Assembly (NCBI RefSeq): GCF_000422945.1
Contig: NZ_KE383964.1
Span: forward strand, 411,650 to 475,649
From: Daejeonella oryzae DSM 19973
GTDB taxonomy: Bacteria; Bacteroidota; Bacteroidia; Sphingobacteriales; Sphingobacteriaceae
DNA length: 64,000 nt
Direction: 5' to 3'
Each line of letters begins with the position of its first letter. Within the stretch, counting starts at the first letter, position 1. Shown piece after piece: positions 17,901-33,136 of the stretch. Made by a program: the position numbers and the translations under genes. The notes beneath the pieces are model-generated. The model did no database searches. It was not told where the DNA came from and saw nothing but the letters and a program-made list of their open reading frames with translations.

Positions 17901-19254
17901 CATGGAAATTGAATACAAGGATTTTAATCTACGTCACTGTATTGAAAATGTGATGGACGTATTTTCAGATAAAGCAGCAAAGCAGCAAATCGATTTAATT
18001 TACGATCTGGATCGTCAGTTGCCTGTTATAATTCAAGGAGATAGTTTCAGGCTGAGACAAATTCTCATTAATTTTATTGGCAACGCATTAAAGTTTACGC
18101 ATAAAGGTGAGGTGTGTTTGCAGGTAAAACTTCAGGATAATTCAACAGGCGATCTCAGTATTTTATTTGTTCTTAAAGATACAGGTATCGGTATTCCTGA
18201 AAATAAACTTTCACGTCTTTTTAAAGCTTTTTCTCAGGTTGACTCTTCTACCACCCGAAAATATGGCGGAACAGGCCTGGGATTAGTTATCAGCGAAAAA
18301 CTTATAGATTTAATGGGTGGTAAGGTAGAAGTGAGCAGTAAGGAAGGTGTGGGAACTACTTTTAGCTTTACAATCAAAAGTAAGCTGGCAGAAAATTCTG
18401 TTCTTCCAGATGATCAGCTTGACTTAACATGCACAAAAGGAAAGCGTGTGTTGCTTGTGGATGATAATGTAAATAGCCTTTCTATTCTAAAATCGCAGCT
18501 TCAGAGTATTCATTTGCAGGTAATTACTGCATCATCAGCTAAAATGGCCTTGGGTATTTTAAAGCGGGATGTAAAGTTTGATCTTATCGTAACCGACATG
18601 CAAATGCCCGAAATGGACGGCTTGGGTTTAGCAGGCAGGTTGAAAATAAAAGTACCGCATATTCCTGTTATTCTTTTAAGTGCGGTGGGTGACGAGTCTA
18701 AAACAAAACATCCCGATCTTTTTAATGCTGTACTTACCAAGCCGGTTAAAGAAAGTCAGTTGTTTGCTGTGCTTCAATCAGAGTTACAATCCGAAAATAA
18801 AAAACCTGTCGAAATAAAGGCCAACAGCAGCATTCTCAATGAAGATTTTGCACAATTATATCCATTAAATATTCTGATCGCAGAAGATAATCTGATAAAT
18901 CAAAAACTGGCAACCAGAATTTTGTACAAACTCGGCTACAAAACTGTTGTTGCAAATAATGGGCTGGAAGCTGTGGAAATGCTGAAAAAAACTCCTTTTG
19001 ATGTTATTCTAATGGATATGCAAATGCCTGAGATGGATGGGTTAGAGGCTACCGCAATGATTAGAAAAACATCGGATCATCAGCCACAGATCATAGCTAT
19101 GACCGCTAACGCCTTACCCGAAGATCGTGAAGCGTGCATTCAGAGCGGGATGAACAATTATATTTCTAAGCCCATTAATCTGGAAATATTAGTTGATATT
19201 TTGCGGGACACAGCTTTGCTGATCAATACCGAGAATTGCGTAGTAGAAATTTGA
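14953..19254 (+). CDS. Propeller-type hybrid sensor histidine kinase with two receivers
   Basis: This 1433-residue transmembrane sensor starts with a signal peptide ([19 protein letters not shown]). A periplasmic two-component propeller follows, with about fourteen repeats of the LWIGT..GGLNRFD type (about 30-690), then a Y_Y_Y domain (about 720-800) and one transmembrane helix (about 810-830). A coiled coil rich in QSEEL repeats leads to the HisKA domain (His about 927 in [10 protein letters not shown]), the ATPase domain (DTGIGIP, GGTGLGL) and two receivers with Asp about 1215 and 1355 (DMQMPEMDG in both). Unlike classical hybrid regulators of glycan loci, it ends after the second receiver with no AraC output domain, so it must signal to a separate regulator. 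The neighbouring genes give no clue to its ligand. Confidence 0.93.
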
Positions 19255-19289
19255 GTTGATAGTTTTACTATTCAGATTTAAAATATCTT

Positions 19290-20165
19290 TTAATCAATAT
19301 TCCTGGCCAGTAAATGGCTAATGTCAATGAGGTTCGATTGATGAGCAATGCTGTTGGTAGTAATTATTTCTCCGGCTCCGTTTTTTCTCAACTCATCAAA
19401 AGAATTCCCGGCAAAAATTGCATGTACAGCAATGCAAGCCGGTGCAGTCATTCCTGTTTTTCTTAAAAGCCTCACCGTTTGGATCATGGTGCCAGCAGTT
19501 GAAATAATATCATCCACAATAACAGGCGTATGGTTTTTATATTTTTTGATTTCAGGTAAGGTAATTTGTACGTCCCGGTCACCAAGCCTGATTTTTTTAA
19601 GAATGAGATAAGGAGCCGCGGCATTTTTTGCTATTTCTGAAACCCATTGTTCGCTTTCTTCATCGGGCCCGATGAGTAGCGGATTTAAAATATGGCTTTT
19701 AATATATTCTGAAATTAGGGGAGAAGCGTGAATTACTTTACAGGGAATTGAATAAATTTCAGAAAGTGAATTTCTGCGATGCAGGTGCGGGTCAATGGTA
19801 ATTAGCTCATCGGCGAAGCCGGAAATAAGTTTTGCAAAATAATCAGAAGTAATTCCTTCGCCCGTTTTAAAAGATTTATCCTGTCGCATGTAAGCCAGGT
19901 ATGGAGCAACCAGGCAAATTGAATTTGCGCCCAATGATTTTAACGTTTTTGCAAGAAAATATAAGGGTATTATTTTCTTATCCGGATAATCCATTGTGCA
20001 AACAATAATTGCTTTCTTATTTTCCACACTGCTTTCAACCCGCAAATAGGTTTCCCCGTCGGGGAAATGACTGATAACTAATTTGCCCAAATTCGTTTGT
20101 AAAAACCCGGCTATTTCTTCTGCAAAGAATTGATTCCCGGGTAAGGCAAGTACAATATAATCCAT
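19290..20165 (-). CDS. prs: Ribose-phosphate pyrophosphokinase paralogue
   Basis: This is a 291-residue PRPP synthetase-family protein, somewhat shorter than the housekeeping enzyme (about 310). Conserved elements are HFPDGETYLRV, VAPYLAYMRQDK, TIDPHLHR and the PRPP-binding loop PVIVDDIISTAGTM. The reaction would make PRPP from ribose 5-phosphate and ATP. It is the last gene of a four-gene minus-strand set with an AMP-phosphorylase-like enzyme and two nucleases. It may therefore handle ribose phosphates released by nucleotide breakdown rather than supply bulk PRPP. Divergence from the standard enzyme leaves the exact substrate open. Confidence 0.87.
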   Translation of the reverse strand: MDYIVLALPGNQFFAEEIAGFLQTNLGKLVISHFPDGETYLRVESSVENKKAIIVCTMDYPDKKIIPLYFLAKTLKSLGANSICLVAPYLAYMRQDKSFKTGEGITSDYFAKLISGFADELITIDPHLHRRNSLSEIYSIPCKVIHASPLISEYIKSHILNPLLIGPDEESEQWVSEIAKNAAAPYLILKKIRLGDRDVQITLPEIKKYKNHTPVIVDDIISTAGTMIQTVRLLRKTGMTAPACIAVHAIFAGNSFDELRKNGAGEIITTNSIAHQSNLIDISHLLARNID

Positions 20166-20221
20166 TTTTCAATCAGCTTATTTTAAAAATATATAAATTG
20201 ATTCAGGTTTATTATTACTGT

Positions 20222-21721
20222 TTATTGAATGGTAATAATATTATTATTGTCTTTCATATATTCCAAAGCATAATTCAGTTCTCCGGTTGCTTCTGCGTAA
20301 ACGGTAAATAAAACATCACCTTTATTGACTTTTTTCCCTAGCGGAGAATGAAATAAAATACCAGCCGAAGCTGATCTGGGAGCACCCGCCAATTTTGCTA
20401 TCCGGGCAAGTTTTCGATTATCAACAGCTTTAACAATTCCTCCTTTTTCTGAAAGTACATCTTGTTTAAACCGGGCATACGCAGGTTCTTTAAATCCTCC
20501 CTGCTTGTGGCAAATGGATATAAATTTGGATAATGCTTTCCCACTTTTCAGGATAGTTTCTGCCTGCTTTTTTCCCGTTCCAACCGCAAACTGACCGGAT
20601 AATTCCAGTAATTCTCCGGCAAGCCAGATAGCAGTTTCCTTTAAATCCATAGGAGCAAATTCCTGATTTCTAAGTACAGAAAGTACGTCTAAAGCTTCCA
20701 GCGAAGGGCCAATTCCTCTGCCCACCGGCTGGGAGCCATCGGTTAATACAACTTTCACTTTTAAGCCGATCGCATTTCCAACAGCTTCGAAGTAAGATTG
20801 AAGCAATAGCGCTTCTTCAGCAGACCTGACTTTGGCAGTATCTCCCACAGGAATATCAATTAATACGTGAGTTGCACCTGCAGCTACTTTCTTGGATAAA
20901 ACAGATGCAATCATTTGTCCGCCACTATCTACTTCCAAAGCTTTTTCCACAGAAATCAGTATATCATCAGCCGGACTTAGTTGTACGGCTCCGCCCCAAA
21001 CTATACAGCCATTTTCCTGGCCAACCACCTGTTTAATTTCTGCCAGACTAAGATTTACGGGAGACATTGTTTCCATTGTATCTGCGGTTCCGGCAGGTGA
21101 GGTAATGGCTCTTGACGATGTTTTTGGTATGGTTAATCCGGCTGCGGCCACAATACTCACAATAATAGGTGTTGTCCGGTTACCCGGAAGACCGCCTACG
21201 CAATGTTTATCTAAGATAATTTTATTATTCCATTGAATTCTCTGACCTGTATTAATCATCGCCTTTGTTAAGCCGATTATCTCGTTTTTGGAAAGATTGT
21301 CTCCGGCGCATGCCGATATAAATGCCGCCAGTTCAATGTTGGAATACATTCCTGCCGCTATATCAGAAATGATTTCAGCAAACTCCTGCTCGCTTAATTC
21401 TTTATCGTATAGTTTGGCCCTTACCAGACTCAGCGAACTAATATGCTTTAAATGCGAAACGCTGATTAACTCCCCGTCATTAACACCCAGCCTTTTCATA
21501 GCTTCCATAGATAAGCCTGCCTCTCCGGATGAAAGCAAATCAGAATGAACTACGTTCAGCGTTGCGATAATGCTTTTTGAATTAAAGTGAACAACTATTC
21601 TTTTTAATGCGGTAAATCCCTCAGAAAGACATACCTGGCAATCTGCCCGCATAAAAATGATATTTTCCCGATAGGTATCAATCCCAATATTTTTTGCTTT
21701 TAATTGCTGCGGTTTATTCAT
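20222..21721 (-). CDS. AMP phosphorylase-like / thymidine phosphorylase family enzyme
   Basis: This 499-residue enzyme is of the pyrimidine/AMP phosphorylase superfamily. It is longer than bacterial DeoA (about 440) because of an N-terminal beta domain of about 80 residues, as in archaeal AMP phosphorylases. The active-site run KHCVGGLPGNRTTP followed by TIPKTSSRAITSPAGTADTM matches the AMP phosphorylase type, not the DeoA type, which has GGVGD and GGTLD. The predicted reaction is phosphorolysis of a nucleoside 5'-monophosphate to a free base and ribose 1,5-bisphosphate. Its start codon overlaps the stop of the beta-CASP gene by one base (TAATG), implying translational coupling. No ribose-1,5-bisphosphate isomerase or RuBisCO gene is seen here. 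Confidence 0.85.
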   Translation of the reverse strand: MNKPQQLKAKNIGIDTYRENIIFMRADCQVCLSEGFTALKRIVVHFNSKSIIATLNVVHSDLLSSGEAGLSMEAMKRLGVNDGELISVSHLKHISSLSLVRAKLYDKELSEQEFAEIISDIAAGMYSNIELAAFISACAGDNLSKNEIIGLTKAMINTGQRIQWNNKIILDKHCVGGLPGNRTTPIIVSIVAAAGLTIPKTSSRAITSPAGTADTMETMSPVNLSLAEIKQVVGQENGCIVWGGAVQLSPADDILISVEKALEVDSGGQMIASVLSKKVAAGATHVLIDIPVGDTAKVRSAEEALLLQSYFEAVGNAIGLKVKVVLTDGSQPVGRGIGPSLEALDVLSVLRNQEFAPMDLKETAIWLAGELLELSGQFAVGTGKKQAETILKSGKALSKFISICHKQGGFKEPAYARFKQDVLSEKGGIVKAVDNRKLARIAKLAGAPRSASAGILFHSPLGKKVNKGDVLFTVYAEATGELNYALEYMKDNNNIITIQ

Positions 21722-23085
21722 TAGACGTCAATTTTTTGATTTAACGAAGGAATGATAGAGTTCCAGCCATATACATCTTTTATTTTTACTCTTAATGAAT
21801 CTGCAGATTGCGGCTCACCATGAACGATGAAAATATATTCGGGCTTTTGCTTTAAAAGACTCAGCCAGTCTATTAACTCTTTTTGATCTGCATGGGCTGA
21901 TAAACCCTGCAGGTTTTCGATGCTGGCATTTACTGTATAATATTTGCCGTATAATTTCACTTCATTTGCTCCTTCAAGCAACTGCCTTCCCCGCGTACCT
22001 TCGGCCTGGAATCCTACCAGTAATATGGTGGCTGAAGGATCTTCCAGATATTTTTGAAAATAATTAAGAACGCGGCCGCCAGATCCCATTCCTCCGCCTG
22101 CAATAACAATCTTCGAACTATTATCCGCCACTAATTTTACAGAATCCTTAACTGTTTTTACGCATCGTATTTCCCGGCACATTTCTTTGCACTGATCGGC
22201 GCTGAGGCGGTGCCAGTTGGTATTGTTGAGAAAAATATCCAGGACCTTATTTCCCATCGGGCTATCCATGTACACCGGTATGTTTGCTATTTTACCCGTT
22301 TTTCTTAATTGCCAGATCAGGTACATGAGCATTTGGGTTCGCTCAACTGCAAAACTCGGGATAATAACAATTCCTTTCTTTTCAAAGGAATTATTAATTA
22401 TCGAGGCTAAATTATCTTCAGAATTTCTGGGGTGAAGGCGTCCGCCGTAGGTTGATTCTATGAATAAAACAGTTGCTTCTTCAGGTTTTTTGGGAGCATA
22501 CATCAGCGGGTCAACCTCCCGGCCAATATCTCCCGAAAAAACAAGTAATTTTTTGCCGATTTTCAATTCAATAAAAGTGGATCCAATAATATGTCCGTTG
22601 TATCTGAACCGGCAATGAATGTCATCATCTATTTTTAGCCATTCATCCGGAGGCTGAGGAGAAAAATGCGGTACTGTATTTTTTACATCTTCTGATGTGT
22701 ATAATGGTTTTGCGGGATTATGCTTTGAATATCCATTTTCATTTGCTCTTTTGGCATCCTCTTCCTGGATTCTGGCACTATCCTGCAATATAATTTCTGC
22801 GACTTCAAGGGTTGGAGAAGTCCCCCATATCTTACCTTTATAACCCGCATTAACAAGTTTTGGTAAATAACCAACATGATCCAGATGGCCATGAGTCAGG
22901 AGAATGACATCAATGAGTGAAGGATTTATCTCAAGTTCTTCCCAATTTAATAAGCGGAGTTTTTTGATTCCCTGAAATAAACCGCAGTCCACTAGGATAT
23001 TTTTCTGATGCGTTTTAATAAGGTATTTTGAGCCTGTCACCGTTCCCGCGGCACCTAAAAAACTAATCTCAATGTTATTATTCAT
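21721..23085 (-). CDS. Beta-CASP metallo-beta-lactamase RNA exonuclease
   Basis: This is a 454-residue metallo-beta-lactamase protein with an inserted beta-CASP domain, the architecture of CPSF73/RNase J-like mRNA-processing nucleases. Zinc ligands are visible in LLTHGHLDHVGYLP and in VFSGDIG. The beta-CASP region contains IPSFAVERTQ and GGGMGSGGRV, and the C-terminal ligands are in LSAHADQKEL and IVHGE. I start it at the ATG at 23085 (MNNNIEISFLG). An in-frame start 12 codons upstream adds a segment absent from this fold. It couples to the AMP-phosphorylase-like gene by a one-base overlap, so RNA degradation may feed nucleotide phosphorolysis. Confidence 0.9.
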   Translation of the reverse strand: MNNNIEISFLGAAGTVTGSKYLIKTHQKNILVDCGLFQGIKKLRLLNWEELEINPSLIDVILLTHGHLDHVGYLPKLVNAGYKGKIWGTSPTLEVAEIILQDSARIQEEDAKRANENGYSKHNPAKPLYTSEDVKNTVPHFSPQPPDEWLKIDDDIHCRFRYNGHIIGSTFIELKIGKKLLVFSGDIGREVDPLMYAPKKPEEATVLFIESTYGGRLHPRNSEDNLASIINNSFEKKGIVIIPSFAVERTQMLMYLIWQLRKTGKIANIPVYMDSPMGNKVLDIFLNNTNWHRLSADQCKEMCREIRCVKTVKDSVKLVADNSSKIVIAGGGMGSGGRVLNYFQKYLEDPSATILLVGFQAEGTRGRQLLEGANEVKLYGKYYTVNASIENLQGLSAHADQKELIDWLSLLKQKPEYIFIVHGEPQSADSLRVKIKDVYGWNSIIPSLNQKIDV

Positions 23086-23163
23086 AGATATTATTTTAGT
23101 TATTCCCAGAACAGATGACAAACTGAGGATATCAGTTCCCTAATTTTTATTTCCGCTTTTAAG

Positions 23164-24006
23164 TTAATTATGACAAAGCTGATGACCTTCTTCAAGAATC
23201 AGGGGAATGCGGGAAGGTTTTATTCCGATGTCACTCAGGTAATATTCTCGATCACAGATTTCTTTGCACAAAACAATGTTTTTATCCAGCAATTGCTGCT
23301 TTTCGAATTTGGAAAGCGTAGTAAGGCAGGTAATCGGATATAGTTCAAGCATGTCAATCTGATCTTTTAAACTATTTTTTTTGGGATAATCCCATCCAAG
23401 CATCTGTAGCCCGGCACAGATTCCATATTGGATTGCATCGTGGGTGAACCGGGTATTAGTAACCACCCAGCCCTGATGAATTTTATGGGCATGACCCGGA
23501 ATCTGAATCCATTTTTGTTCCACATCCTTAAACCTTGACTGAATGTAAAGCGGGATTTTTACGTCACAAACAATTCCGGGCTGATTATGATATTTGCATT
23601 CGATCATAAAATAATGATCTTCTTTTTCAGCTATTACATCTATCTCATGATACACACATTTGCCTTTTACAATTTCCCCTAGTTTTATGGAGTACCCCTG
23701 GTGTTTTAATATTTCCCCAATAAATTTTTCAAAAGGATAGCCCGAAGGCCCCAGTTCCATAATGGCTCCTTTTAAATGATATTTTGCAGCCAGGTGACCC
23801 GAGCGTTCCCGGAGAAGATTATGAGCAATACGATAAATTTTTTTTGTAGAAATTCCTTCGTACAATTTTGGCTTTAATTCATTTAGAATTAATTGGGCCT
23901 GTTCTTCATCAGCCCCTGCATTTATCAGTGATCGCTTAAATTTTTCGGTAGAAAATGTGACTTTCAGTCCGCTGGCTTTGGTTATGATCAGGTCGCTTGA
24001 TTTCAT
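23164..24006 (-). CDS. ATP-cone domain fused to a restriction-endonuclease-like nuclease
   Basis: This is a 280-residue two-domain protein. The N-terminus (about 5-92) is an ATP-cone, the nucleotide-sensing module of ribonucleotide reductase and NrdR. The middle (about 95-215) is a PD-(D/E)XK nuclease fold of the Mrr type, with the catalytic Asp in YHEIDVIAEK and the E-C-K pair in YFMIECKYH. The C-terminal 60 residues are cysteine- and histidine-containing but unrecognised. It heads the four-gene minus-strand set, behind two Crp/Fnr-type promoter modules. A nuclease gated by ATP or dATP level is a reasonable inference; the substrate (DNA or RNA) is unknown. Confidence 0.85.
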   Translation of the reverse strand: MKSSDLIITKASGLKVTFSTEKFKRSLINAGADEEQAQLILNELKPKLYEGISTKKIYRIAHNLLRERSGHLAAKYHLKGAIMELGPSGYPFEKFIGEILKHQGYSIKLGEIVKGKCVYHEIDVIAEKEDHYFMIECKYHNQPGIVCDVKIPLYIQSRFKDVEQKWIQIPGHAHKIHQGWVVTNTRFTHDAIQYGICAGLQMLGWDYPKKNSLKDQIDMLELYPITCLTTLSKFEKQQLLDKNIVLCKEICDREYYLSDIGIKPSRIPLILEEGHQLCHN

Positions 24007-24044
24007 AGGCAGACTTCTTTAGTAAAGGAGCGGAATCCGGTATA

Positions 24045-24088
24045 CAAATATTTACATATCAAACTGTGCCTAAGATGACCATCGTCAT
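24045..24088 (-). promoter_or_regulatory. Crp/Fnr-type palindrome plus -7 core (proximal)
   Basis: The palindrome ATGAC-CATC-GTCAT (24075-24088) has its centre exactly 35 bp upstream of a TTTG -7 core (24045-24048 on the minus strand), placing the site near -42. It drives the ATP-cone/nuclease operon with a leader of about 30 bases. The spacing is identical to seven other modules in this island. Confidence 0.7.
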
Positions 24089-24120
24089 AACATGCGATGA
24101 TTTAAAAACGTGATTATAAA

Positions 24121-24164
24121 TAAATATGCCTTACCTGCGAAATGAAAGGGATGACGAAGGTCGC
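24121..24164 (-). promoter_or_regulatory. Crp/Fnr-type palindrome plus -7 core (distal, weak)
   Basis: The degenerate palindrome ATGAC-GAAG-GTCGC (24151-24164) lies exactly 35 bp, centre to centre, from TTTA (24121-24124, minus strand). It sits 76 bp upstream of the proximal module and may be a second promoter for the same operon. The imperfect right arm and the TTTA core make it the weakest of the set. Confidence 0.4.
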
Positions 24165-24252
24165 TGTGAAATATTAATCACTGCGAATGCAGAAATAATA
24201 GTTATAAAGAGTAGAGTTTTACTAATAATGAAGATTAAAACAAAAAGGATTT

Positions 24253-24708
24253 TTACAGATTCAGTATTGCCCATCCCTGGGAGTGTCTGATAATTATTTC
24301 TCCGTTAGCACTGGGAACGTAGGAGATGAATGAGAATAAACTACTCTTTTCAATTTTTCTTTGAATTAATGTGTTTTCACATTGGGCAAGGATAACTCCT
24401 TTAGTAAGCAAATCTGTAAGTCTCTCTTCAAATGGGCCACTCTTTTCAAACAATTTTACTCCATCGCCAAAGGCAACTAATTCAATTTCCAGTTTACCTT
24501 TCAACCGGGGATCGGCCATTGCATTTTTAATATTCCTAAGTATTCCGGAAATTTTCTTTTCATCACCGTTATTGAGGACATATAAAGCTTTATAATTAGA
24601 AAGGGTTGCTTCTGCTCCTGTAAAAACATGATTTTGTGTCTGTGCAGATGCAGGTGCAGTAAACATGAAAAAACAAGCGGTTACTATCAGGATGGATAAT
24701 TTCTTCAT
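24253..24708 (-). CDS. Exported DsrE-like protein
   Basis: This 151-residue protein has a cleavable signal peptide (MKKLSILIVTACFFMFTAPA, cut after ASA) and a DsrE/DsrF-like domain, recognisable from YKALYVLNNGDEKKISGILR, ELVAFGDGVKLF and TKGVILAQCENTL. Relatives carry or transfer sulfane sulfur. A single Cys lies in the position where DsrE proteins have their conserved one (AQCENT). It is the third gene behind the TsdA-like and SoxB-like genes on the same strand, 93 bases from the latter, which fits a periplasmic role in thiosulfate or persulfide handling. Confidence 0.82.
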   Translation of the reverse strand: MKKLSILIVTACFFMFTAPASAQTQNHVFTGAEATLSNYKALYVLNNGDEKKISGILRNIKNAMADPRLKGKLEIELVAFGDGVKLFEKSGPFEERLTDLLTKGVILAQCENTLIQRKIEKSSLFSFISYVPSANGEIIIRHSQGWAILNL

Positions 24709-24801
24709 AAGAATAGTATTTGGTAAGAATTAATAAAACGGGAATGATTTTAATGATGCGTTATAATAAATAAATCAGGTGGTTTATTTATTCACAAGAT
24801 G

Positions 24802-26532
24802 CTAAATAAATTTATAATCGTAACCTTCTAACTGAGATAATAAGTCAGCCGGCTGATCTGTTGCCGTAACTCTTCCTTCAATTTTTGGAGATACCGGCGA
24901 ATGTACCGCAAGATACTCGGTTAAGATTTGGTGCAGCGAAGAATTTAGCTTTCTGGCACTCTTTACATTTTCCACACGGCATAAAGTATCATCAGGATCG
25001 CCCTCTCTTTCGCAGGCCACAATGCTGTACATTTTTTCCTTATCTATTTTTTTGCCTTTGACTTTTACCCAATTCAGCCGTTTGCCTTTTTCATTATATG
25101 CCGTAAAATTTATTTCCATGCCGCAGAATCGTACCACCCATCCTCCGAAACGTTCCGCAGGATTATCGGCAAACACATTGTGCAGTTCTTTTTCAAGCCA
25201 TTCCCATAATTGCTGACCCGAAATTTCACCTTCTTTTGCAATGCTTTCTACAGGAAGCATGCTCCATAAAAATTCATAAGTGATCTCTGCTAAACCCGTT
25301 TTCGCATCCGGAATTAAAGGCGGACAAAAACGAAACCCGTTGCTTAATGCTATATCCGGTTTGAATTTCCACATAATCGCATCGGTAATCATATTATCCA
25401 TTGGATTTTCTAAAACGTAATACCTCACCAATGGAACCCTGCTTTTCCCAATTACTTTATCCAGTTCTTTTTTATAAGGATCTCTTGCTTTTAAAACCAA
25501 ATCCATCATTTCCTGATCGGGCTTATATATTTCCGGGTCAACATCTAAAAGCTGGTAATTATGATCTTTTATTTTCCCGTCTTCCAGAACTATATCCAGT
25601 TTGGAAATGAATGAGCCAAAAGCACCCGGTTCGGTAACCCTTGTGTACCTGGCATCGATAGGTTTTCGAACACGTTCATGCGTATCAGCACCCAAAATAT
25701 AATCCACACCCTCAATCTCCTGATTATTTCCCAGATCTACCTGCTGAGCCAAACCCATATGCGTTACAAGAAAAACCATTTCGCATTTTTCATATTTTCT
25801 CAGAATACGAACATATTTTGCAACGTTTAATTCCGGTTTGGTAAATTTAATTCCCTCGCTGTACGCAGGAGACTGACGTTTTGGTGTTAAAGGATCGTTA
25901 TAGCCTATAAATCCAATTTTTAAGCTGCCCATATTGCTTGTCCAATATGGAGGATACATTAAGTCGCCATTCTCATTATCTTTTGTATCGTGGAACATAT
26001 TGGCGCAAATTTTTTGGGCCTGGTAAAATCCCATATCCTCACGCATTATTTCTTTCCCATATACAACTTCCCAGTTTCCGGGCAAAACCAGATCATACCC
26101 AATATTATTTATCAGGGGCACAATAGCTTTGCCTTCGCTCAATGCTGCAACGGCGCCACCCTGAAAGCAATCGCCACCGTCAATAATTAACGTGTTATCC
26201 GGATTTTGTGATTTAAGCGTATGCAGCATAGTTTTGAGAACTGCAAATCCGCCTCTTTTTTTATAAACTTCTTTCTCATTCTCCCAAAAGAATTCATCAT
26301 GGGTATAAAGCTGGGCATGTATATCCGCCGTATGAAGCAAAGTAATGCGTTTAGCTTTACCTTGCTGCAAAGTTTTACTTTTCAGGATTTCCTGTTCATG
26401 ATTTATATCTCCGGTTATTGCTGATGCAACCTGCGGTAACCCGCTTAAGGCTAAGCCGGCCATGCCTACGGTTTTGATAAAATTGCGACGCTCAGTATGG
26501 CAATTGCAGGTTTCGGAATTAGGCATAGTCAT
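24802..26532 (-). CDS. SoxB-like metallophosphoesterase (5'-nucleotidase family), Tat-exported
   Basis: This 576-residue periplasmic protein has a Tat-type signal (ERRNFIKTVGMAGLALSG) and a calcineurin-like phosphoesterase domain (about 60-340) joined to a 5'-nucleotidase C-terminal domain (about 375-540). The closest pattern is the thiosulfohydrolase SoxB: HTADIHAQLYT, DGGDCFQGG, LPGNWEVVYGK and VTHMGLAQQVDL. The usual last metal motif GGHTHD reads GADTHER, so one metal-binding His appears as Asp. SoxB cleaves sulfate from a carrier-bound sulfane chain, but no SoxYZ, SoxAX or SoxCD genes lie in the window. It follows the TsdA-like gene by 50 bases. A 5'-nucleotidase role remains possible. 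Confidence 0.8.
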   Translation of the reverse strand: MTMPNSETCNCHTERRNFIKTVGMAGLALSGLPQVASAITGDINHEQEILKSKTLQQGKAKRITLLHTADIHAQLYTHDEFFWENEKEVYKKRGGFAVLKTMLHTLKSQNPDNTLIIDGGDCFQGGAVAALSEGKAIVPLINNIGYDLVLPGNWEVVYGKEIMREDMGFYQAQKICANMFHDTKDNENGDLMYPPYWTSNMGSLKIGFIGYNDPLTPKRQSPAYSEGIKFTKPELNVAKYVRILRKYEKCEMVFLVTHMGLAQQVDLGNNQEIEGVDYILGADTHERVRKPIDARYTRVTEPGAFGSFISKLDIVLEDGKIKDHNYQLLDVDPEIYKPDQEMMDLVLKARDPYKKELDKVIGKSRVPLVRYYVLENPMDNMITDAIMWKFKPDIALSNGFRFCPPLIPDAKTGLAEITYEFLWSMLPVESIAKEGEISGQQLWEWLEKELHNVFADNPAERFGGWVVRFCGMEINFTAYNEKGKRLNWVKVKGKKIDKEKMYSIVACEREGDPDDTLCRVENVKSARKLNSSLHQILTEYLAVHSPVSPKIEGRVTATDQPADLLSQLEGYDYKFI

Positions 26533-26582
26533 AATTAATCTTTTTAAAATTTGATTACCAGCATTTGCATGAAGAATTAGAA

Positions 26583-27668
26583 TTATTTACCGCCGGTTTT
26601 CGAGGCTTTAACAATCGGGTCATACGGGCCGTATTTGTGTTGTTTTGCCGAAAATTTATCAGCGTATGGACCGAACGGGAAATCGAACGGTTTTTTTGAA
26701 GTGTCTTTCCAGTCGCCGCTTTGATCTTTATGAGGCCGCGGCATAGAATTTACATAGGCAGCCACATCCCAAGCTTCTTCATCACTTAGCTGCTGATTTT
26801 CGTGAGTAGCGCCTAATGGCATATTATTTTTCACGTAGCCAGAGAATCCGGACAAACGAAATAAACCTGCGCCATCATTATAACTATTTTTTCCCCAGAG
26901 GGGAGGATAGAGATATCCGGTTTGCTCGGGATTGGCTAAGCCTTCACCATTTTTACCATGGCAAGACTGACATTTACCGGAATAAACTACCGCACCTTTT
27001 TTAGGGTCTGCAGCCCGGTCAAGAAAGGCAAGCTTTTCTAAGCCGGCACCTGCCGGAATTTTACCTTTTTCTATACCGGTTCCAAGCCATTTCATATAAG
27101 CAAGCATAGCTTTCATCTCTTTGCTTGTACTATCCAGCGCCTTCCCATTTAAACTGCGTTCAAAACAGTCGTTAATTCTTTTTACAGTAGATTCTTTAGT
27201 GCCGGAGCGGGCCCTGAATTTGGGATACGTAGAATAAACGGCCGAGTAATTATTCCCCCAGGGTTTTGTTCCTGCATCGAGATGACAGTTTTGACAATTC
27301 ATTCCGTTGCTGATACTGGCAACTTTGCCTTTGGGACCCAAATATGTAGATGTATGGGCAATTAATTCCTTACCATAAAGGATTATTTCCCCTTCTGTTC
27401 CCGAGGGCAGCGTACTTTCATCCGGGGCGGTCCATAACGCACTTGCTACATTAGTTTTAGTATTCTCTATTGCAGGAGAACTGGCTTCAGTAACTGGAAC
27501 TTGAGGAGTGGATTGCAATTGATCTGCTGATCTTTCATCCGTTCCTGACTCAAATAGGATACTTATAAAAATACCTGCAACAACTAAGAAAAGTACAGAA
27601 ATGATTATTACCGAGCGGGATACGCTGATTATAGCTTTTTCAACTTCATTTTGCTTATTGTGAGGCAT
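26583..27668 (-). CDS. tsdA: Diheme cytochrome c, thiosulfate dehydrogenase (TsdA)-like
   Basis: This 361-residue periplasmic protein is held by an N-terminal helix (VIIISVLFLVVAGIFISILF) and has two c-type heme sites, CQNCH at 125-129 and CQSCH at 233-237. Between them lies TVKRINDCFERSLNG. In characterised TsdA enzymes the Cys of this motif is an axial ligand of the active-site heme, and here it is Cys168. TsdA oxidises two thiosulfates to tetrathionate or runs the reverse reaction. A Crp/Fnr-type activator module lies upstream. The SoxB-like and DsrE-like genes follow on the same strand, making a compact thiosulfate unit. Confidence 0.85.
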   Translation of the reverse strand: MPHNKQNEVEKAIISVSRSVIIISVLFLVVAGIFISILFESGTDERSADQLQSTPQVPVTEASSPAIENTKTNVASALWTAPDESTLPSGTEGEIILYGKELIAHTSTYLGPKGKVASISNGMNCQNCHLDAGTKPWGNNYSAVYSTYPKFRARSGTKESTVKRINDCFERSLNGKALDSTSKEMKAMLAYMKWLGTGIEKGKIPAGAGLEKLAFLDRAADPKKGAVVYSGKCQSCHGKNGEGLANPEQTGYLYPPLWGKNSYNDGAGLFRLSGFSGYVKNNMPLGATHENQQLSDEEAWDVAAYVNSMPRPHKDQSGDWKDTSKKPFDFPFGPYADKFSAKQHKYGPYDPIVKASKTGGK

Positions 27669-27733
27669 TTTGAATTATTCTTAAGATGTAAAGCACTTAT
27701 AAATTTCTATTTACTCATGCAGAATTATATAAA

Positions 27734-27777
27734 TAAAGTTATAATACACGTGAACAATCATTTGTAACAAAAGTCAC
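27734..27777 (-). promoter_or_regulatory. Crp/Fnr-type palindrome plus -7 element for tsdA
   Basis: The site GTAAC-AAAA-GTCAC (27764-27777) is centred exactly 35 bp upstream of the TTTA core of TAACTTTA (27734-27741, minus strand). The 337-base gap 27669-28005 holds this module and otherwise shows no gene. Confidence 0.68.
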
Positions 27778-28005
27778 ATAGCAAAGGTTACCGAAGAATA
27801 GGTATTTGAACAAACCCGGAAGATGTTCATTTTTAAATTAAAAGATAGGTTTATCTGTTTAACTAATTCTGCTAAAATTGACTGAAGCCTTTAATCAACA
27901 GAAATAAATTTCTTAGCTTAAATTTAAGCAATGGATTTTTGAAAAAGAATAGAAAATACGCTTAGGAATTCTGCATATCCAGGTCTCTACAGAAAAAATA
28001 GTTAA

Positions 28006-28635
28006 TTAAAATTCTTTAAGGAGTTTTATTTCGTTCCGGTAAAGTAAAATTTTGCCATCATTTTCTAATTGTTTTAGCAGACGGGAAACAACTACTCTTG
28101 ATGTGGCCAATTCATCGGCAATTAAATAATGAGAAACTTTAATAACACTCGAGCCGGAAAGACGCTGTTTTTCTCTGAGATAGGAGATAAGCCGTTCATC
28201 AAGTTTATGAAAAGCAATGCTCTCAATTGATTTAAGTAATTCTAAGAAACGTTCATTAAAACTGCGCATAATGTAGTTTTTCCAGCTGGGATATTTACAA
28301 AGCCATTCATCCAGTTTAGTATGCGGAATGGCGATCAGTTCCACATCATCTTCGGCAATTGCCTTTACTTCACTTTTTTTGGCTTCTACGCAGCAACTAT
28401 AGGCCATTGAACAGCTTTCGTTGCTCGACAAATAATAAAGTAATATTTCTTTTCCGTTTTCATCCATGCGCAGCACTTTGATATTGCCATTGACAATGAT
28501 GGGCATCATACGGATGTATTTACCATAATCCATGATAATATCACCTTCTTTATAATGCTTTAACTCACCAAACTCCTGCATTTCTTTAACAAGCGCAGGT
28601 TCAAAAGTCGAATCGAAAGTTGCTGTATTATTCAT
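28006..28635 (-). CDS. Crp/Fnr family transcriptional regulator with cysteine cluster
   Basis: This 209-residue regulator has an N-terminal cyclic-nucleotide-binding-type beta barrel (about 15-115), a long dimer helix (about 120-150) and a C-terminal winged helix with recognition helix SRVVVSRLLKQLE (about 178-190). The barrel carries Cys75, Cys81 and Cys82 in ESCSMAYSCCVEA, plus Cys113. These could sense redox state or persulfides, or bind a metal cluster. The Fnr-type N-terminal cysteine array is absent, and the cAMP-binding residues of Crp are not evident. It begins 6 bases after the porin gene and is co-transcribed with it. Its location among sulfur genes makes it the best candidate to bind the repeated palindromes of this island. 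Confidence 0.92.
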   Translation of the reverse strand: MNNTATFDSTFEPALVKEMQEFGELKHYKEGDIIMDYGKYIRMMPIIVNGNIKVLRMDENGKEILLYYLSSNESCSMAYSCCVEAKKSEVKAIAEDDVELIAIPHTKLDEWLCKYPSWKNYIMRSFNERFLELLKSIESIAFHKLDERLISYLREKQRLSGSSVIKVSHYLIADELATSRVVVSRLLKQLENDGKILLYRNEIKLLKEF

Positions 28636-28641
28636 AGGATC

Positions 28642-30066
28642 TTAGAAATGATAATTTAACACAAAATTATATTGAAGTATATTTACTTTATTAATTTCAA
28701 AACGGGTGTTGTCGTACGTTTTACCATTATTAATTTTTCCTGCAATCAGGAATTGAGCTTCAAGGCCTTTAAACGTTCCTGTAAAAGAATATCGGGCATC
28801 GGCATTAATCTGTGTATACGAAGGTAAGCCATACTTATTTAACTTGTAGTTTTTTACGTCGGGCATTTGATAATAACCTGCTGACAAAGATGTGTTCATC
28901 CCTGAGCGGGGAATATTATAATTCACTTTTGCCATAAAAGCATGAACATCACCAAATCCCTCATTTCGTTCCCTTGGAAGAAAGGTAAAAAAAGGCTCTC
29001 GTCCCCATTCACGGGGCATTAAATAGCGTCCATGAGCTGTGATCCGATTGTAGTTTAAGCTGGCTTCAAATATCTTATTTCTCCAACCGGCTCTTGTACC
29101 TAAAGAAACGGCTTTACCTCCTTTTTCAAAATAGGTTCTGGCAGCATCCGGATTTCCTCCATCATTCACCGCATCCTGTCTGATCAGCTGTGCGGAAGCA
29201 AATACTGAACTTTTGTTTTTAATAGGGAACATCAAATCTGCCTGCAGCATAGCGGTGTTAAAAACATTTTCGGAGAATAGGTCCCAGGCCTGAAGTTTTA
29301 AGTTATTGATGTTTGTGCTAATTCCTAAAATAGCAGCAGATTTACTTTCAATAGAATTTAGGTATGCTGATTTTGTTCCGTCTGTATTTAAACCAGCCGG
29401 ATAAATTCCCATTGATTCACCTGTGTTATACCATTTTGTAGTTCCTCTCGGAGAAATAGCGTAGAGCCAGCCACCCTCAATTTTTGTATTTTTAATCTCG
29501 TTGAATTCTATATACAGACCTTCTACTCCTGTAGAGCGCATTCGCCCATCCTGTAAATTAATGAAAGGAGTATTAATTAACTGCCGGCCTGCAGTTGCTG
29601 AAGATTTTTTATAATTGTATTTGAGATGTACTTCTTCTAAACGGGTGATGAATTTTTTATTAGCCGGATCCTGAATATCAAAAAGAGAAGATTCATAGCG
29701 GTTTAATTGCCCTGTTACAGAGTCGGCTAAGGTAAAGTCGGAAGAGCCCATATTGTAAATGTATGATCCGCTTAGAGCAAGCTGAAAGCCATGTAAGGGT
29801 GCGGTTTCATAACGAATGCTGCCACCAACCGCATTTGCATAATAATCCGTCAGGCCCTTTTTATTATCAGTTGCCATAAAAAAGTATCTGAAGTGGCCAT
29901 CGATCTGAGCCTTTTTTAAAGCCGAAAGTAAAGAAGTCGAGTCTACATTTTTAAGCCCTTCGCTTTTCTCAATTTCAGATTGCTCAGCAATTTCCTGATT
30001 TTGTGCAAAGAGCATAGTTCCGCCGGTAAATAATATTAGCATTACTGCTAACATGATTTTTTTCAT
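28642..30066 (-). CDS. OprD-like outer-membrane porin
   Basis: This is a 474-residue outer-membrane beta-barrel. I start it at the ATG at 30066, which gives a signal peptide (KKIMLAVMLILFTGGTMLFA); an in-frame start 49 codons upstream precedes this signal and is unlikely. Family marks of OprD-type substrate-specific porins are GHFRYFFMATDN at the start of the barrel, GRQLINTPFINLQDGRMRST in the middle and alternating aromatic beta strands ending LNYHF. OprD relatives admit small organic or inorganic anions. Lying between a split YeeE/YedE pair and the Crp/Fnr gene, it may let sulfur oxyanions into the periplasm; that is inference. Confidence 0.82.
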   Translation of the reverse strand: MKKIMLAVMLILFTGGTMLFAQNQEIAEQSEIEKSEGLKNVDSTSLLSALKKAQIDGHFRYFFMATDNKKGLTDYYANAVGGSIRYETAPLHGFQLALSGSYIYNMGSSDFTLADSVTGQLNRYESSLFDIQDPANKKFITRLEEVHLKYNYKKSSATAGRQLINTPFINLQDGRMRSTGVEGLYIEFNEIKNTKIEGGWLYAISPRGTTKWYNTGESMGIYPAGLNTDGTKSAYLNSIESKSAAILGISTNINNLKLQAWDLFSENVFNTAMLQADLMFPIKNKSSVFASAQLIRQDAVNDGGNPDAARTYFEKGGKAVSLGTRAGWRNKIFEASLNYNRITAHGRYLMPREWGREPFFTFLPRERNEGFGDVHAFMAKVNYNIPRSGMNTSLSAGYYQMPDVKNYKLNKYGLPSYTQINADARYSFTGTFKGLEAQFLIAGKINNGKTYDNTRFEINKVNILQYNFVLNYHF

Positions 30067-30124
30067 TTTTATCGAGTTTAGAAAAAGGGAAGAATGTTTA
30101 CAGAACATGGTCCGAAAACAAACA

Positions 30125-30164
30125 TCCCGGAACAATACTCCGTGTTTCAGAATTAATTCCGGGA
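30125..30164 (-). other. Inverted repeat in the porin leader
   Basis: TCCCGGAA (30125-30132) and TTCCGGGA (30157-30164) pair perfectly across a 24-base loop, 59 bases ahead of the porin start. No T tract follows. It could be an mRNA leader structure or a protein-binding site. Confidence 0.4.
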
Positions 30165-30179
30165 GGTTAATAAAATGGA

Positions 30180-30205
30180 ATATGGGGCTTTTGAGATCCC
30201 CATAT
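30180..30205 (-). terminator. Hairpin after the YeeE/YedE pair
   Basis: Perfect 8-bp arms ATATGGGG / CCCCATAT enclose a 10-base loop, 51 bases beyond the second YeeE/YedE stop. On the minus strand it is followed by a T-rich stretch. It probably ends or attenuates the upstream usp-yeeE transcript before the porin. Confidence 0.55.
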
Positions 30206-30255
30206 ATAAACAATATTTGATGCTGATTTCCTGACTGAAAAGATTAGTTTGAAAA

Positions 30256-30669
30256 TTAATGAGGCAATTTATCTCTCAATAATCCATACAAATATGTTCC
30301 AACCAGCGCAAAGAAAAATACAATAATCATGGACAGGAAACCGTAGCCGATGTTTACGACCATGGGTCCGGGGCAGGCACCGCTTAATGCCCAGCCAAGT
30401 CCAAAGATTGATCCTCCTAAAAGATAGCGTGTAACTGATTTTTCCTTTGGAGCAAATACGATCGGGTTACCGTGGAAATCCCTGATTTTATATTTTTTAA
30501 TTAACGCAACGCCAATTACGCCCAGAATTACGGCAGTACCAATAATTCCATACATGTGAAAGGATTGAAAACGGAACATTTCCTGTATCCGGAACCATGA
30601 AATGGCTTCTGATTTAGCCATTGCAATGCCGAAGACTATACCGAGTAAGCCAAATTTTAAAAATTTCAT
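30256..30669 (-). CDS. YeeE/YedE-family membrane protein, C-terminal half type
   Basis: This 137-residue membrane protein has about four hydrophobic segments and the family Cys motif LSGACPGPMVVNIGYG (Cys about 99). It corresponds to one half of the YeeE/YedE (TsuA) thiosulfate transporter fold, in which conserved cysteines guide thiosulfate through the membrane. It starts 4 bases after the partner gene that encodes the other half, and would pair with it. Two-piece versions of this kind (PmpA/PmpB type) are known beside persulfide-responsive genes. Confidence 0.85.
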   Translation of the reverse strand: MKFLKFGLLGIVFGIAMAKSEAISWFRIQEMFRFQSFHMYGIIGTAVILGVIGVALIKKYKIRDFHGNPIVFAPKEKSVTRYLLGGSIFGLGWALSGACPGPMVVNIGYGFLSMIIVFFFALVGTYLYGLLRDKLPH

Positions 30670-30673
30670 AGTA

Positions 30674-31231
30674 TTAAAATATTAATGGGAATATTAAAAA
30701 TGTCATTATTAAACCGCCTGCAAAAAATCCGATTACAGCAATAAGAGAGGGAACCTGCAGGTCAGATAGACCGCTGATTGCATGCCCTGATGTACAGCCG
30801 CCCGCATAACGTGATCCGAAGCCCACCATTAATCCTCCTAAAGCCAAAACAAGAAATCCCTTCAGTGAAAAAACAGCCTCCATGCTGAATAATTCTGCCG
30901 GTTGTAATGAAGCAGGAGCAGCAAAGCCTAACTGATTTAAATCTGTTATTGTTGCTTGCGAAATTTGTACCGGCGCATCGGTAGAGAGATAATGTTTGGC
31001 TAAAAAGCCACCGATAATAGCACCAACCAGAAATACCAGGTTCCAGATTTGTGATTTCCAGTTAAAGTCAAAAAATTTAACCTTTTTACCCAGGCCGCTT
31101 GCAGCACAGATGGTTCTTAAGTTTGATGAAAAGCCAAATGATTGTCCGAAATATAAAAGGAAAAACATGATTCCGGCTATCAGAGCCCCTGAGAACCACC
31201 ATGACCAGGTTTGTGTTATGATATCTATCAT
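30674..31231 (-). CDS. YeeE/YedE-family membrane protein, N-terminal half type
   Basis: This 185-residue membrane protein has about five hydrophobic helices and the signature GSRYAGGCTSGHAISGLSDL, containing the conserved Cys of the YeeE/YedE family. With the next gene, 4 bases downstream, it completes a split transporter predicted to import thiosulfate or a related sulfur compound. It starts 2 bases after the UspA gene stop, so usp and both halves form one tight operon. A full-length single-chain YeeE is about 350 residues, close to the sum of the two products. Confidence 0.87.
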   Translation of the reverse strand: MIDIITQTWSWWFSGALIAGIMFFLLYFGQSFGFSSNLRTICAASGLGKKVKFFDFNWKSQIWNLVFLVGAIIGGFLAKHYLSTDAPVQISQATITDLNQLGFAAPASLQPAELFSMEAVFSLKGFLVLALGGLMVGFGSRYAGGCTSGHAISGLSDLQVPSLIAVIGFFAGGLIMTFLIFPLIF

Positions 31232-31233
31232 GA

Positions 31234-32076
31234 TTATTTAGTGTTATTTAAATGAAATGAAATAATGGGCTTGAACAAGTGATTGATCAATTTTTCGGTT
31301 GCACTTTGATGGAACATTCCACCTTTTCCGTGTGTACCGATACAAATCAGATCCATATTATTCATTTGGTTAAAATGAATTACGCCGTTCTCTACATCCT
31401 TATCATTGATCAAATGACATTCGTAATTTGTAATATTATTAAGCTCCGCAAATTTTTTCATATTTGATTCAACCGTAGCCAAATCTCCCTGTGTACTACC
31501 GCTTGTTATTTGTAGCAAATGTAGCTTGATGCCAAATGCATTGATCAGTTTATGCAAAAGAGATATGTCTTCTTTTACCGGATTGCTGAAATTATATACT
31601 AATAAAATATTGCTGATTATAAGATCCGAGCGATCGCACATCAGGGAAAGCAATGGAGTTTTAGACTTGCGGGCTATCACCTGTGTTTCTGATCCTGATA
31701 ATTTTTCTTTTAAACCCCATGCGCCTTTTGTACCCATTACTATTAAATCAAAATGATTTATTTCTGAGAATTTTAAAATAGCATCTGTTGTTTTTCCAAG
31801 TACCAAATGGGTTTGAATCTGATCTCCGTACAGGCTCTTCAGATTTGCTAATTTTCTTTCAGCTATTTCTTTTTGCTTTAAAACGTAGTTGATGTCAATT
31901 TCTCCGCAAGTTCTGATTTCGCCATTAGCATCAATTGTTACGGTGTCAGGCACTTCTAAAACATGTAGAAAGTTAATTTCAATGTCTGATTTTTCTTCAA
32001 GCTTTTTTACCATCAGGTAAGCAAATTCTGCCTGAACTGAGAAATCGGTAGGGATAAGTATTTTTAAACTTTCCAT
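31234..32076 (-). CDS. Tandem universal stress protein (UspA family)
   Basis: This 280-residue cytoplasmic protein has two UspA folds. The first (about 1-145) carries the ATP-loop VMGTKGAWGLKEKLSGSETQ. The second (about 150-280) carries IGTHGKGGMFHQSATEKLIN. Both loops keep the Gly-rich spacing and a Ser/Thr, so nucleotide binding is plausible. Usp proteins are induced by stress and by low oxygen and often sit beside sulfur-transport and metallo-beta-lactamase genes in Bacteroidota. It leads the usp-yeeE-yeeE operon with 2- and 4-base gaps. Its upstream region (32077-32190) shows no convincing copy of the Crp/Fnr module. Confidence 0.92.
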   Translation of the reverse strand: MESLKILIPTDFSVQAEFAYLMVKKLEEKSDIEINFLHVLEVPDTVTIDANGEIRTCGEIDINYVLKQKEIAERKLANLKSLYGDQIQTHLVLGKTTDAILKFSEINHFDLIVMGTKGAWGLKEKLSGSETQVIARKSKTPLLSLMCDRSDLIISNILLVYNFSNPVKEDISLLHKLINAFGIKLHLLQITSGSTQGDLATVESNMKKFAELNNITNYECHLINDKDVENGVIHFNQMNNMDLICIGTHGKGGMFHQSATEKLINHLFKPIISFHLNNTK

Positions 32077-32190
32077 ATAATTTGTTGATTTAGATTATTT
32101 GATGGCAAATTAGCATCAATTCTTAAGCAGACTTTTTTCAAATCCGGATGATGTCAATATATTCCGGTAATGTTTTTAAAGCGGGGAGTA

Positions 32191-32502
32191 TTATTTAACA
32201 AATTGCTTTATATCTTCCCAGGTACCGCCATTCACTACATTTTTAAACCCATTCTGTTCTAAAATTGCTTTTGCCTGGCCGCTTCTGTTGCCACTGCGAC
32301 AGAAAACAACAATGTTTTTCTTGTCTTTAAATTGCTCTAATTGTGCGGGTACAATATCCAGAGGGATATTTACTGAACCTGGTACATGGCCTTCGGCAAA
32401 TTCACCCCGACTTCTTACATCCACTAAAAATGCTCCTTCTTCAATAATGTTTTTTAGATCTACTGGTTCTGAACCACCGAATATCTGTTTAAATATGTTC
32501 AT
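32191..32502 (-). CDS. Single-domain rhodanese (sulfurtransferase)
   Basis: This 103-residue rhodanese homology domain protein has the active-site loop VVFCRSGNRSGQA, whose Cys (about 69) would carry a persulfide. Upstream motifs FLVDVRSRGEFAEGHVPGS and the C-terminal NGGTWEDIKQF are canonical. It moves sulfane sulfur between thiosulfate or persulfide donors and acceptors in the cytoplasm. It lies downstream of the DUF2892 and DUF6132 genes on the same strand and probably belongs to their transcript. Confidence 0.94.
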   Translation of the reverse strand: MNIFKQIFGGSEPVDLKNIIEEGAFLVDVRSRGEFAEGHVPGSVNIPLDIVPAQLEQFKDKKNIVVFCRSGNRSGQAKAILEQNGFKNVVNGGTWEDIKQFVK

Positions 32503-32646
32503 TTTTTTAAAATTTAAATTGTTGAATTGTAAATTATATCATATATGCTGTTTATCCAATCAGGCCCTTTATCCATCCGGCTTTGCCGTTTATTAAGTGA
32601 AATTATTTATGATCTTACCTGGATTTGAATTATCAGTTTCCTGATT

Positions 32647-33094: not shown

Positions 33095-33136
33095 GGTATT
33101 CCTGATTTAAATATATCCCAATTTGTTTTGGTACAA

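Follow-up and report, generated by a model that had tools for sequence, protein, structure and literature searches.

What does a paralogue of phosphoribosyl pyrophosphate (PRPP) synthetase do beside an enzyme that resembles the AMP phosphorylase of archaea? The question is raised by four genes on the minus strand of Daejeonella oryzae DSM 19973, which run from position 24006 to position 19290 of a 64,000-nucleotide stretch of contig NZ_KE383964.1 (hereafter, the window). The first-pass annotation had suggested that this set turns RNA into PRPP-linked salvage, with the PRPP synthetase (Prs) paralogue in the place that ribose-1,5-bisphosphate (R15P) isomerase and RuBisCO hold in archaea. We found that the gene set is a real, conserved module, and for its central enzyme step we put forward a hypothesis. 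The reading that we tentatively favor, as possible though short of probable, is a bacterial variant of the archaeal nucleoside monophosphate (NMP) shunt, with a remodelled Prs taking over from R15P isomerase and RuBisCO: NMP + Pi would give base + R15P, and R15P + AMP would give ribose 5-phosphate (R5P) + ADP. We infer the substrates and the direction of all these steps.

The list of open reading frames (ORFs) and direct reading of the sequence confirmed four consecutive genes with a one-base overlap. The first gene (23164..24006, minus strand, as are the other three) encodes a 280-residue ATP-cone-like protein with an Mrr-type nuclease domain, recognized by the Mrr_cat profile. The second gene (21721..23121) encodes a β-CASP metallo-hydrolase with Beta-Casp and RMMBL profiles, a probable RNase, which is 466 residues long when read from the listed TTG at 23121; a start at Met13 (23085) is likelier. 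The third gene (20222..21721) encodes the NMP-phosphorylase-like enzyme of 499 residues, including an N-terminal extension, and the fourth (19290..20165) encodes the 291-residue Prs paralogue, whose pyrophosphate loop is rebuilt to GPDEESEQWV. The stop codon of the β-CASP gene and the start codon of the phosphorylase gene share the base at 21721 (TAATG), and the remaining gaps in the set are 42 bases (78 with the Met13 start) and 56 bases. The terminator scan found no terminator-like site on the coding strand of these gaps. Promoter and terminator scans of the region stayed at chance level, and its repeats and base composition showed nothing notable.

The lack of an R15P isomerase and of RuBisCO, noted earlier for the window, holds for the whole 3.4 Mb genome (G000), in which neither TIGR00511 (R15P isomerase) nor PF00016 (RuBisCO) had a match. 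PhnN was not found over its cut-off in this genome either (best match 44 bits, cut-off 156). A profile search identified a second prs gene of canonical type (346.7 bits), and the phosphorylase model had a single further match, weak at 31 bits and probably TrpD.

The identity of the phosphorylase was examined with family models, motifs and a tree. The protein was over the cut-offs of NF003338 (670.4 bits, cut-off 434) and TIGR02645 (601.3 bits, cut-off 434.6), and far under those of the thymidine and pyrimidine-nucleoside models TIGR02643 (148.7 against 570.7), TIGR02644 (213.3 against 409.05) and NF004490 (202.3 against 269). It matched the AMP phosphorylase profile TIGR03327 over positions 1-490 of 500, the N-terminal extension included. 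The closest solved relative is 4ga5 (E 1.5e-98), which we take to be the Thermococcus kodakarensis enzyme TK0352. With this archaeal NMP (AMP) phosphorylase the window's enzyme has in common its side of the superfamily, the N-terminal extension and the motif SSRAITSxAGTAD. The pattern S(R/K)(A/S)(I/V)TS(P/A)(A/S)GT was present in 57 of 57 phosphorylase-family rows, which include repeat reads of single genes, and in 0 of 26 DeoA-type rows, all 26 of which carry SGRxLxHxGGT at the same place. In a 54-row tree, which used 8 of the 26 DeoA-type rows and left out 11 loci repeating genes already present, DeoA stood apart from all others with a support of 100/100; in this tree and in the relatives search, the phosphorylases closest to the window's copy were from Bacteroidota. 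These results, together with the fusions described below, support placing the enzyme on the AMP/NMP-phosphorylase side of the superfamily and not with DeoA, in agreement with its original label. Relatives of the two enzymes are publicly annotated as "thymidine phosphorylase family protein" and "ribose-phosphate pyrophosphokinase", which would suit an ordinary thymidine or uridine phosphorylase beside an ordinary prs. With the DeoA and pyrimidine-nucleoside models far under cut-off, a different substrate motif and the PhnN fusions against it, we regard that explanation as highly improbable. The NMP phosphorylase of Thermococcus, which makes R15P, was also earlier misannotated as a thymidine phosphorylase (PMC8376864, PMC9700705; these and the papers below are cited from parts of their text).

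In five loci, PhnN was found fused to the N-terminus of the phosphorylase. A NadC-type gene lies directly before the fusion gene in all five, and the pairs are located in Oceanobacter (L024, 4482-9389, PhnN 158.2 bits), Pacificitalea (L025, 4490-9413, 183.9 bits), Variovorax (L085, 7159-11134, 179.7 bits), Paraburkholderia (L086, 7127-9869, 178.9 bits) and an alphaproteobacterium (L118, 1495-4475, 192.2 bits). All five fusions pass the 156-bit cut-off of the PhnN model TIGR02322, and their phosphorylase parts are also over cut-off (519.7-604 bits). Four of them entered the tree, trimmed to the phosphorylase part, and formed one clade with a support of 100/99; the fifth, L118, belongs to the loci L106-L125, which are outside the tree. 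PhnN converts R15P to PRPP (PMC9700705). Since an R15P kinase is joined here to the phosphorylase, R15P would be the metabolite between them, which is a strong hint that this phosphorylase family makes R15P from mononucleotides. The Prs paralogue was not over cut-off in either of the two fusion genomes tested (G311 and G376), as expected if PhnN takes the place of the paralogue.

Compared with the window, the fusion clusters contain the same phosphorylase family, with an R15P kinase replacing the Prs paralogue, and they have a pyridine-carboxylate setting. NadC and the fusion could form a PRPP-recycling route, in which quinolinate + PRPP gives nicotinate mononucleotide (NaMN) + CO2 + PPi, NaMN + Pi gives nicotinate + R15P, and R15P + ATP gives PRPP. 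Part of a TRAP or TTT transporter was observed near the pair in L024, L025 and L085, an annotated FRG-domain gene near it in Variovorax (L085, 5484-6293) and, by ORF reading, an FRG-like ORF near it in Paraburkholderia (L086, 9903-10745). Bug27 of Bordetella binds quinolinate, and the Variovorax bug27 orthologues adjoin nadC and phnN, which was interpreted as NAD metabolism (PMC11452294); the term "thymidine phosphorylase" was not found in the main text of that paper.

If the phosphorylase makes R15P, the next question is what the Prs paralogue does with it. The paralogue was over the cut-off of NF005537 (378.5 bits, cut-off 322) and also passed TIGR01251 (204.6 against 113 bits). Its AlphaFold2 model, which is ligand-free and has a pLDDT of 90.2, showed the PRPP synthetase fold, a two-domain type I phosphoribosyltransferase (PRTase) arrangement, with a structure match to 3mbi (Z 32.9, 2.0 Å over 281 residues), a fold also seen in human PAP39 and PAP41. 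In PRTase-type folds, the GG/GA loop holds the C1 diphosphate of PRPP. This loop reads SPDxGGxxRA in 6 of 6 canonical Prs and GPDxESxQWV in all 36 readable paralogues above 225 bits, many of which are closely related, six of them being near-identical Legionella clusters. The 225-bit line is a phmmer score to the window protein and was set after the list had been inspected; the count was drawn from 44 rows, with L029, whose broken frame ends before the loop, and L105, the next row below the line, outside the 36. An earlier alignment of the loci's Prs-like proteins gave the rebuilt loop in 29 of 29 paralogues against the canonical loop in 6 of 6, and in the same 29 paralogues the DLHAxQ of canonical Prs is changed to DPHLHR. 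Three solved archaeal Prs have PDKGA, PDRGA and PDDGG at the loop, and NPH, EPH and DIH at the second site, so the first glycine of the loop is general and the histidine alone is common at the second site.

The rest of the active site appears to be intact. In 14 aligned paralogues, F34, P35, D36, E38, R94, Q95, D96, H127, D168, K191, R193, D218, D219 and T226 are invariant, and the motifs FPDxE, RQD, DPH, KxR and DDIxS are kept in all of them. In E. coli Prs, D170, D220 and D221 bind R5P, and H131 and R99 bind the ADP phosphates (PMC9232217); the counterparts in the paralogue, matched by motif, are D168, D218, D219, H127 and K97. The paralogue therefore shares with Prs the fold and the adenine-nucleotide, Mg and R5P residues, and differs from it in having ES for GG/GA, QWV for xRA and DPHLHR for DLHAxQ. 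That the loop has taken one fixed new form while the rest of the site is intact suggests an altered and selected function rather than decay, and the paralogue is probably no ordinary PRPP synthetase. Since the pyrophosphate loop was rebuilt in every readable copy, PRPP is questionable as the product. Thus, of the claim that a PRPP synthetase paralogue takes the place of the archaeal enzymes, the presence of a Prs-fold paralogue in the set stood, and the PRPP end-point became doubtful.

Two other roles for the paralogue bear on the same residues. It may be a working PRPP synthetase, by which NMP-derived R15P or R5P would become PRPP and the bases would be recaptured via phosphoribosyltransferases. 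The fold, nearly all catalytic residues and the TIGR01251 score agree with this role, and in the sister clusters PhnN connects the phosphorylase to PRPP. We nevertheless consider it somewhat unlikely, given the rebuilt loop, the canonical prs already in the genome and the cost of PRPP, whose two phosphoanhydride bonds are odd for an operon induced by respiration failure. Alternatively, the paralogue would catalyze no reaction of ribose phosphates and would sense nucleotides as a regulatory subunit, either of the phosphorylase or of the canonical Prs, as PRPS pseudoenzymes exist (PMC13252144) and PAP39 and PAP41 have its fold. Catalytic K191 and R193 and the Asp residues that bind Mg and ribose are invariant in the 14 copies, unlike in a decayed enzyme, and this role is very unlikely.

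A divergent Prs was observed at L105 (1504-2364, genome G362), with 311-312 bits against the cut-off of 322 and 142 bits to the window protein. Its loop is GPDEESAPLV, its genome is without a phosphorylase over cut-off, and it possibly represents a further change of function.

The distribution of the genes was then used to ask whether the phosphorylase and the paralogue belong together. The core of β-CASP nuclease, phosphorylase and Prs paralogue recurs across Bacteroidota and Proteobacteria, and the 22 related loci come from Bacteroidota, Legionella and other Gammaproteobacteria, and Alphaproteobacteria. In the fetched stretches of these loci, the β-CASP gene was found in at least 17 and the Prs paralogue in at least 16, the counts being lower bounds since some contigs end inside the cluster; hence the set is no chance neighborhood. 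The gene set is thus conserved beyond this strain, and confinement to the strain, the outcome that the first-pass annotation had named as a refutation, was not observed.

In a sample of 142 genomes of Alphaproteobacteria, the class of the Sphingobium genome G304, the paralogue model was over cut-off in 8 and the phosphorylase in 19. All 8 paralogue genomes were among the 19 (hypergeometric p 2.3e-8, a guide only, as related genomes are not independent), and the two genes were adjacent in 7 of the 8, the eighth (G382) having them on separate contigs. Such one-way dependence of the paralogue on the phosphorylase is the pattern of a downstream enzyme. R15P isomerase and PhnN were each over cut-off in none of the 13 checked genomes with both phosphorylase and paralogue. 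Across the 18 phosphorylase genomes checked besides G000, R15P isomerase (TIGR00511) was over cut-off in none, with one match below cut-off in G311 (188.2 bits). The genome checks for isomerase, PhnN and paralogue covered 16 of the 22 loci, and those for isomerase and PhnN also took in G198 and G253.

The two nuclease genes would supply the mononucleotides. The β-CASP protein matched Beta-Casp with 109.6 bits and RMMBL with 69.9 bits, and HxHxDH, GH, GD, EST, SAHAD and HGE are kept in the commonest variants of 35 aligned rows, which include the window's own protein more than once. Since the metal and catalytic motifs are kept, the nuclease is likely active; judged by its family, RNA would be its substrate and mononucleotides its product. 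Its best NCBIfam matches are to Cas14 of Type VII CRISPR and to aCPSF1 (385.7 and 277.7 bits), with which it has the β-CASP motifs in common and under whose cut-offs it lies far (800 and 580.2), and no repeat array was found in 18900-28000. For the first gene, the Mrr_cat match was 29.9 bits over a cut-off of 21, and D123, E136 and K138 of the Mrr-type domain were invariant in four aligned copies, a pattern which we take to be consistent with a PD-(D/E)xK site. The structure model of this protein was poor (pLDDT 56.9). The labels originally given to the four genes stood for the Mrr nuclease, β-CASP protein, phosphorylase and Prs paralogue; the ATP-cone was the sole weak one (PF03477, 21.9 bits against a gathering score of 25.8, E 0.00025). 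The protein may sense ATP or dATP.

A link to oxygen stress, also proposed earlier, was supported by a Bradyrhizobium counterpart. In Bradyrhizobium diazoefficiens, the genes bll3117-bll3116-bll3115 are predicted to be one operon, for which a FixK2 box was placed at -74, and in a fixK2 mutant at 0.5% oxygen bll3117 was down 6.6-fold and bll3115 30.6-fold (PMC9104804). The three genes are also listed in what appears to be Table 2 of PMC6515984, on genes and proteins induced in microoxia. The operon is likened to the window's set by annotation alone: it has the same three annotated genes (thymidine phosphorylase family, ribose-phosphate pyrophosphokinase and metallo-β-lactamase (MBL) hydrolase), its gene order is other than that of the window, and no ATP-cone gene is named there. 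The table of PMC9104804 that lists this operon also contains one for phosphoketolase/acetate kinase. In a survey at an E limit of 1e-60, phosphoketolase occurred in 3 of the 21 genomes that have both genes, in 0 of the 16 that have the phosphorylase only and in 1 of the 24 without; it was thus rejected as a general partner and kept as an occasional one. In G309, the phosphoketolase match begins 12 bases past the end of the paralogue match on the same strand, and in Pseudorhizobium (L088) a gene annotated as xylulose 5-phosphate 3-epimerase, whose length makes it a probable phosphoketolase, lies between the paralogue and the MBL gene.

Taken together, the favored NMP shunt variant would proceed in three steps. 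In the first, inferred step, the two nucleases would turn RNA (or DNA) into 5'-mononucleotides. In the second, which is well supported by family and fusion, the phosphorylase would convert NMP + Pi to base + R15P. In the third, hypothetical step, the Prs paralogue would move a single C1 phosphate, R15P + AMP = R5P + ADP; its adenine-nucleotide and R5P sites are kept and the glycines of the C1-diphosphate loop are lost. Apart from having one phosphate fewer, this equals the reaction of PRPP synthetase run backwards (PRPP + AMP = R5P + ATP), and the acidic loop residue would disfavor a second phosphate. R5P would pass into the pentose phosphate pathway or, in genomes that have it, to phosphoketolase, and the ADP would be usable by adenylate kinase. 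Over AMP the steps sum to 2 AMP + Pi -> adenine + R5P + ADP, so that under failing respiration and high AMP the cell would gain, on balance, pentose phosphate and ADP at the expense of AMP and Pi. This scheme fits the R15P-making neighbor, the 13 genomes in which neither R15P isomerase nor PhnN passed its cut-off, and the low-oxygen operon in Bradyrhizobium. The fuller claim would be that the NF005537/GPDxESxQWV protein is a new R15P:AMP phosphotransferase, forming with NMP phosphorylase an energy-saving route by which bacteria at low oxygen would convert RNA or AMP to pentose phosphate, and a third fate of R15P beside isomerase/RuBisCO and PhnN; taken whole, it is doubtful.

Several observations weigh against the scheme. 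The reaction R15P + AMP -> R5P + ADP is uphill under standard conditions, and the breakdown direction needs high AMP and drained R5P. The phosphorylase scored 501.8 bits with TIGR03327, 33 bits short of the AMP_phos cut-off of 535; it thereby departs from the archaeal pentose bisphosphate pathway, or NMP shunt, as it does by standing with a Prs paralogue and a β-CASP nuclease in a genome with neither R15P isomerase nor RuBisCO over cut-off. The paralogue was missing from 11 of the 19 phosphorylase-positive Alphaproteobacteria. In four of the five checked phosphorylase genomes without the paralogue, neither R15P isomerase nor PhnN reached its cut-off either, so the enzyme can operate where no known consumer of R15P is present. 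The ATP-cone/nuclease gene was found with the set in at least 3 of the 22 loci (3/22), and the phosphoketolase proposed as a partner was unsupported for D. oryzae, with 0 matches in its own genome at the limit given above. The argument on function from the loop is drawn from sequence and a ligand-free model. Finally, a 2026 preprint on new bacterial PRPS classes reports that its major classes all retain the universally conserved catalytic residues, and takes PRPP synthesis as preserved (PMC13252144); the paralogue may fall among its classes II or IV-XI, and the words "phosphorylase" and "Legionell" were not found in its main text.

The same sequence evidence would equally describe the opposite direction, a cheap salvage in which R15P + AMP would be made from R5P + ADP, and NMP + Pi from base + R15P, with no PRPP and no ATP. 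By general energetics this should be the downhill direction, and the archaeal NMP phosphorylase has been described as linking nucleosides to NMPs via R15P (PMC9700705). The adjoining nuclease points to breakdown, and low-oxygen induction suits breakdown at least equally; we therefore consider the salvage direction unlikely.

Other genes of the window and of related loci were also inspected. A sulfur-metabolism island lies upstream on the same strand (24253-36086) and contains DsrE-like, SoxB-like and SoxA/TsdA-like cytochrome c genes, a Crp/Fnr regulator, an OprD-like porin, a split sulfur transporter, a universal stress protein (Usp), a rhodanese, an MBL-rhodanese protein and TauE. The Crp/Fnr-type protein (28006..28635, minus strand; HTH_Crp_2 36.2 and cNMP_binding 35.7 bits) is a candidate regulator only. 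FNR-type boxes, searched with the consensus TTGATNNNNATCAA and up to 2 mismatches, numbered 82 in the window, where chance predicts 76.7 (sd 8.7), with none within 24007-24252. The Usp gene (31234..32076, minus strand; PF00582 73.4 bits) had been named as a partner: there is one such gene 7 kb upstream on the same strand, and it lies outside the operon, where it is possible that it shares the same stress response.

The ATP-cone/nuclease gene was seen in L003, L004, L023 and L026. All four genes occur in the window's order in L004 and on the Pontibacter plasmid L026; L003 has this order with other genes interposed, and L023 has the nuclease gene last. In the window's phylum the phosphorylase is rare, being over cut-off in 3 of 296 sampled genomes. 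Besides these, genome G002 has a shortened copy of 428 bits (L032, 1549-2418), which by ORF reading breaks off at about 300 residues; a metal-efflux-like gene precedes it and a transposase-like fragment follows, suggesting mobility and decay of the module. Eight annotated plasmid neighborhoods contain an unfused bacterial phosphorylase (L026, L027, L028, L087, L088, L089, L090 and L091), with Prs annotated in seven, L089 being the exception, and an MBL hydrolase in six, the exceptions being L027 and L091. A heavy-metal P-type ATPase is annotated near the set in L027, L028, L087 and L090, and an E1-E2 ATPase domain is near it in L004 and L005. The plasmid L027 (Dysgonomonadaceae bacterium zrk40, Bacteroidota) and the Roseovarius plasmid L090 have near-identical phosphorylases and a shared downstream gene order, which points either to recent transfer or to misfiling, the plasmid of a co-cultured organism having been recorded under another name.

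Metagenome-assembled genomes of Rickettsiales (L017 and L019; G305 and G306) keep the phosphorylase, and the paralogue model had no match in G305 and an 18-bit partial match in G306, so that neither genome showed a full Prs. The scanned neighbors of Rickettsiales and Legionellales phosphorylases that lack the paralogue were DsbA-like, Lnt, UvrD, EAL/GGDEF, cytidylyltransferase and AAA/DUF4143 proteins and one matchless protein, and none fits as an R15P enzyme. The Burkholderia cenocepacia lxa locus, considered as a home of the set, was not used, "thymidine phosphorylase" and "ribose-phosphate" being absent from the lxa papers searched.

The gene set and its low-oxygen control are already in print for Bradyrhizobium. 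Word searches of the open-licence literature found, among the matches listed, no biochemical account of the bacterial gene set, and no account of the loop change, the R15P link or the PhnN-phosphorylase fusion. New here are the rebuilt loop, the nesting of the paralogue within phosphorylase genomes and the PhnN fusions beside NadC. If the proposal is true, the "thymidine phosphorylase" would be an NMP phosphorylase and the "ribose-phosphate pyrophosphokinase" a different phosphoribosyl enzyme, a double misannotation in a family that spans Bacteroidota and Proteobacteria, plasmids included. The loop signature would sort genomes at once, and with the paralogue one could test clearly how the group that a Prs-type enzyme transfers is set by its pyrophosphate loop. 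The FixK2-controlled operon of Bradyrhizobium would gain a function, and R15P metabolism would be found in ordinary bacteria as a response to oxygen limitation.

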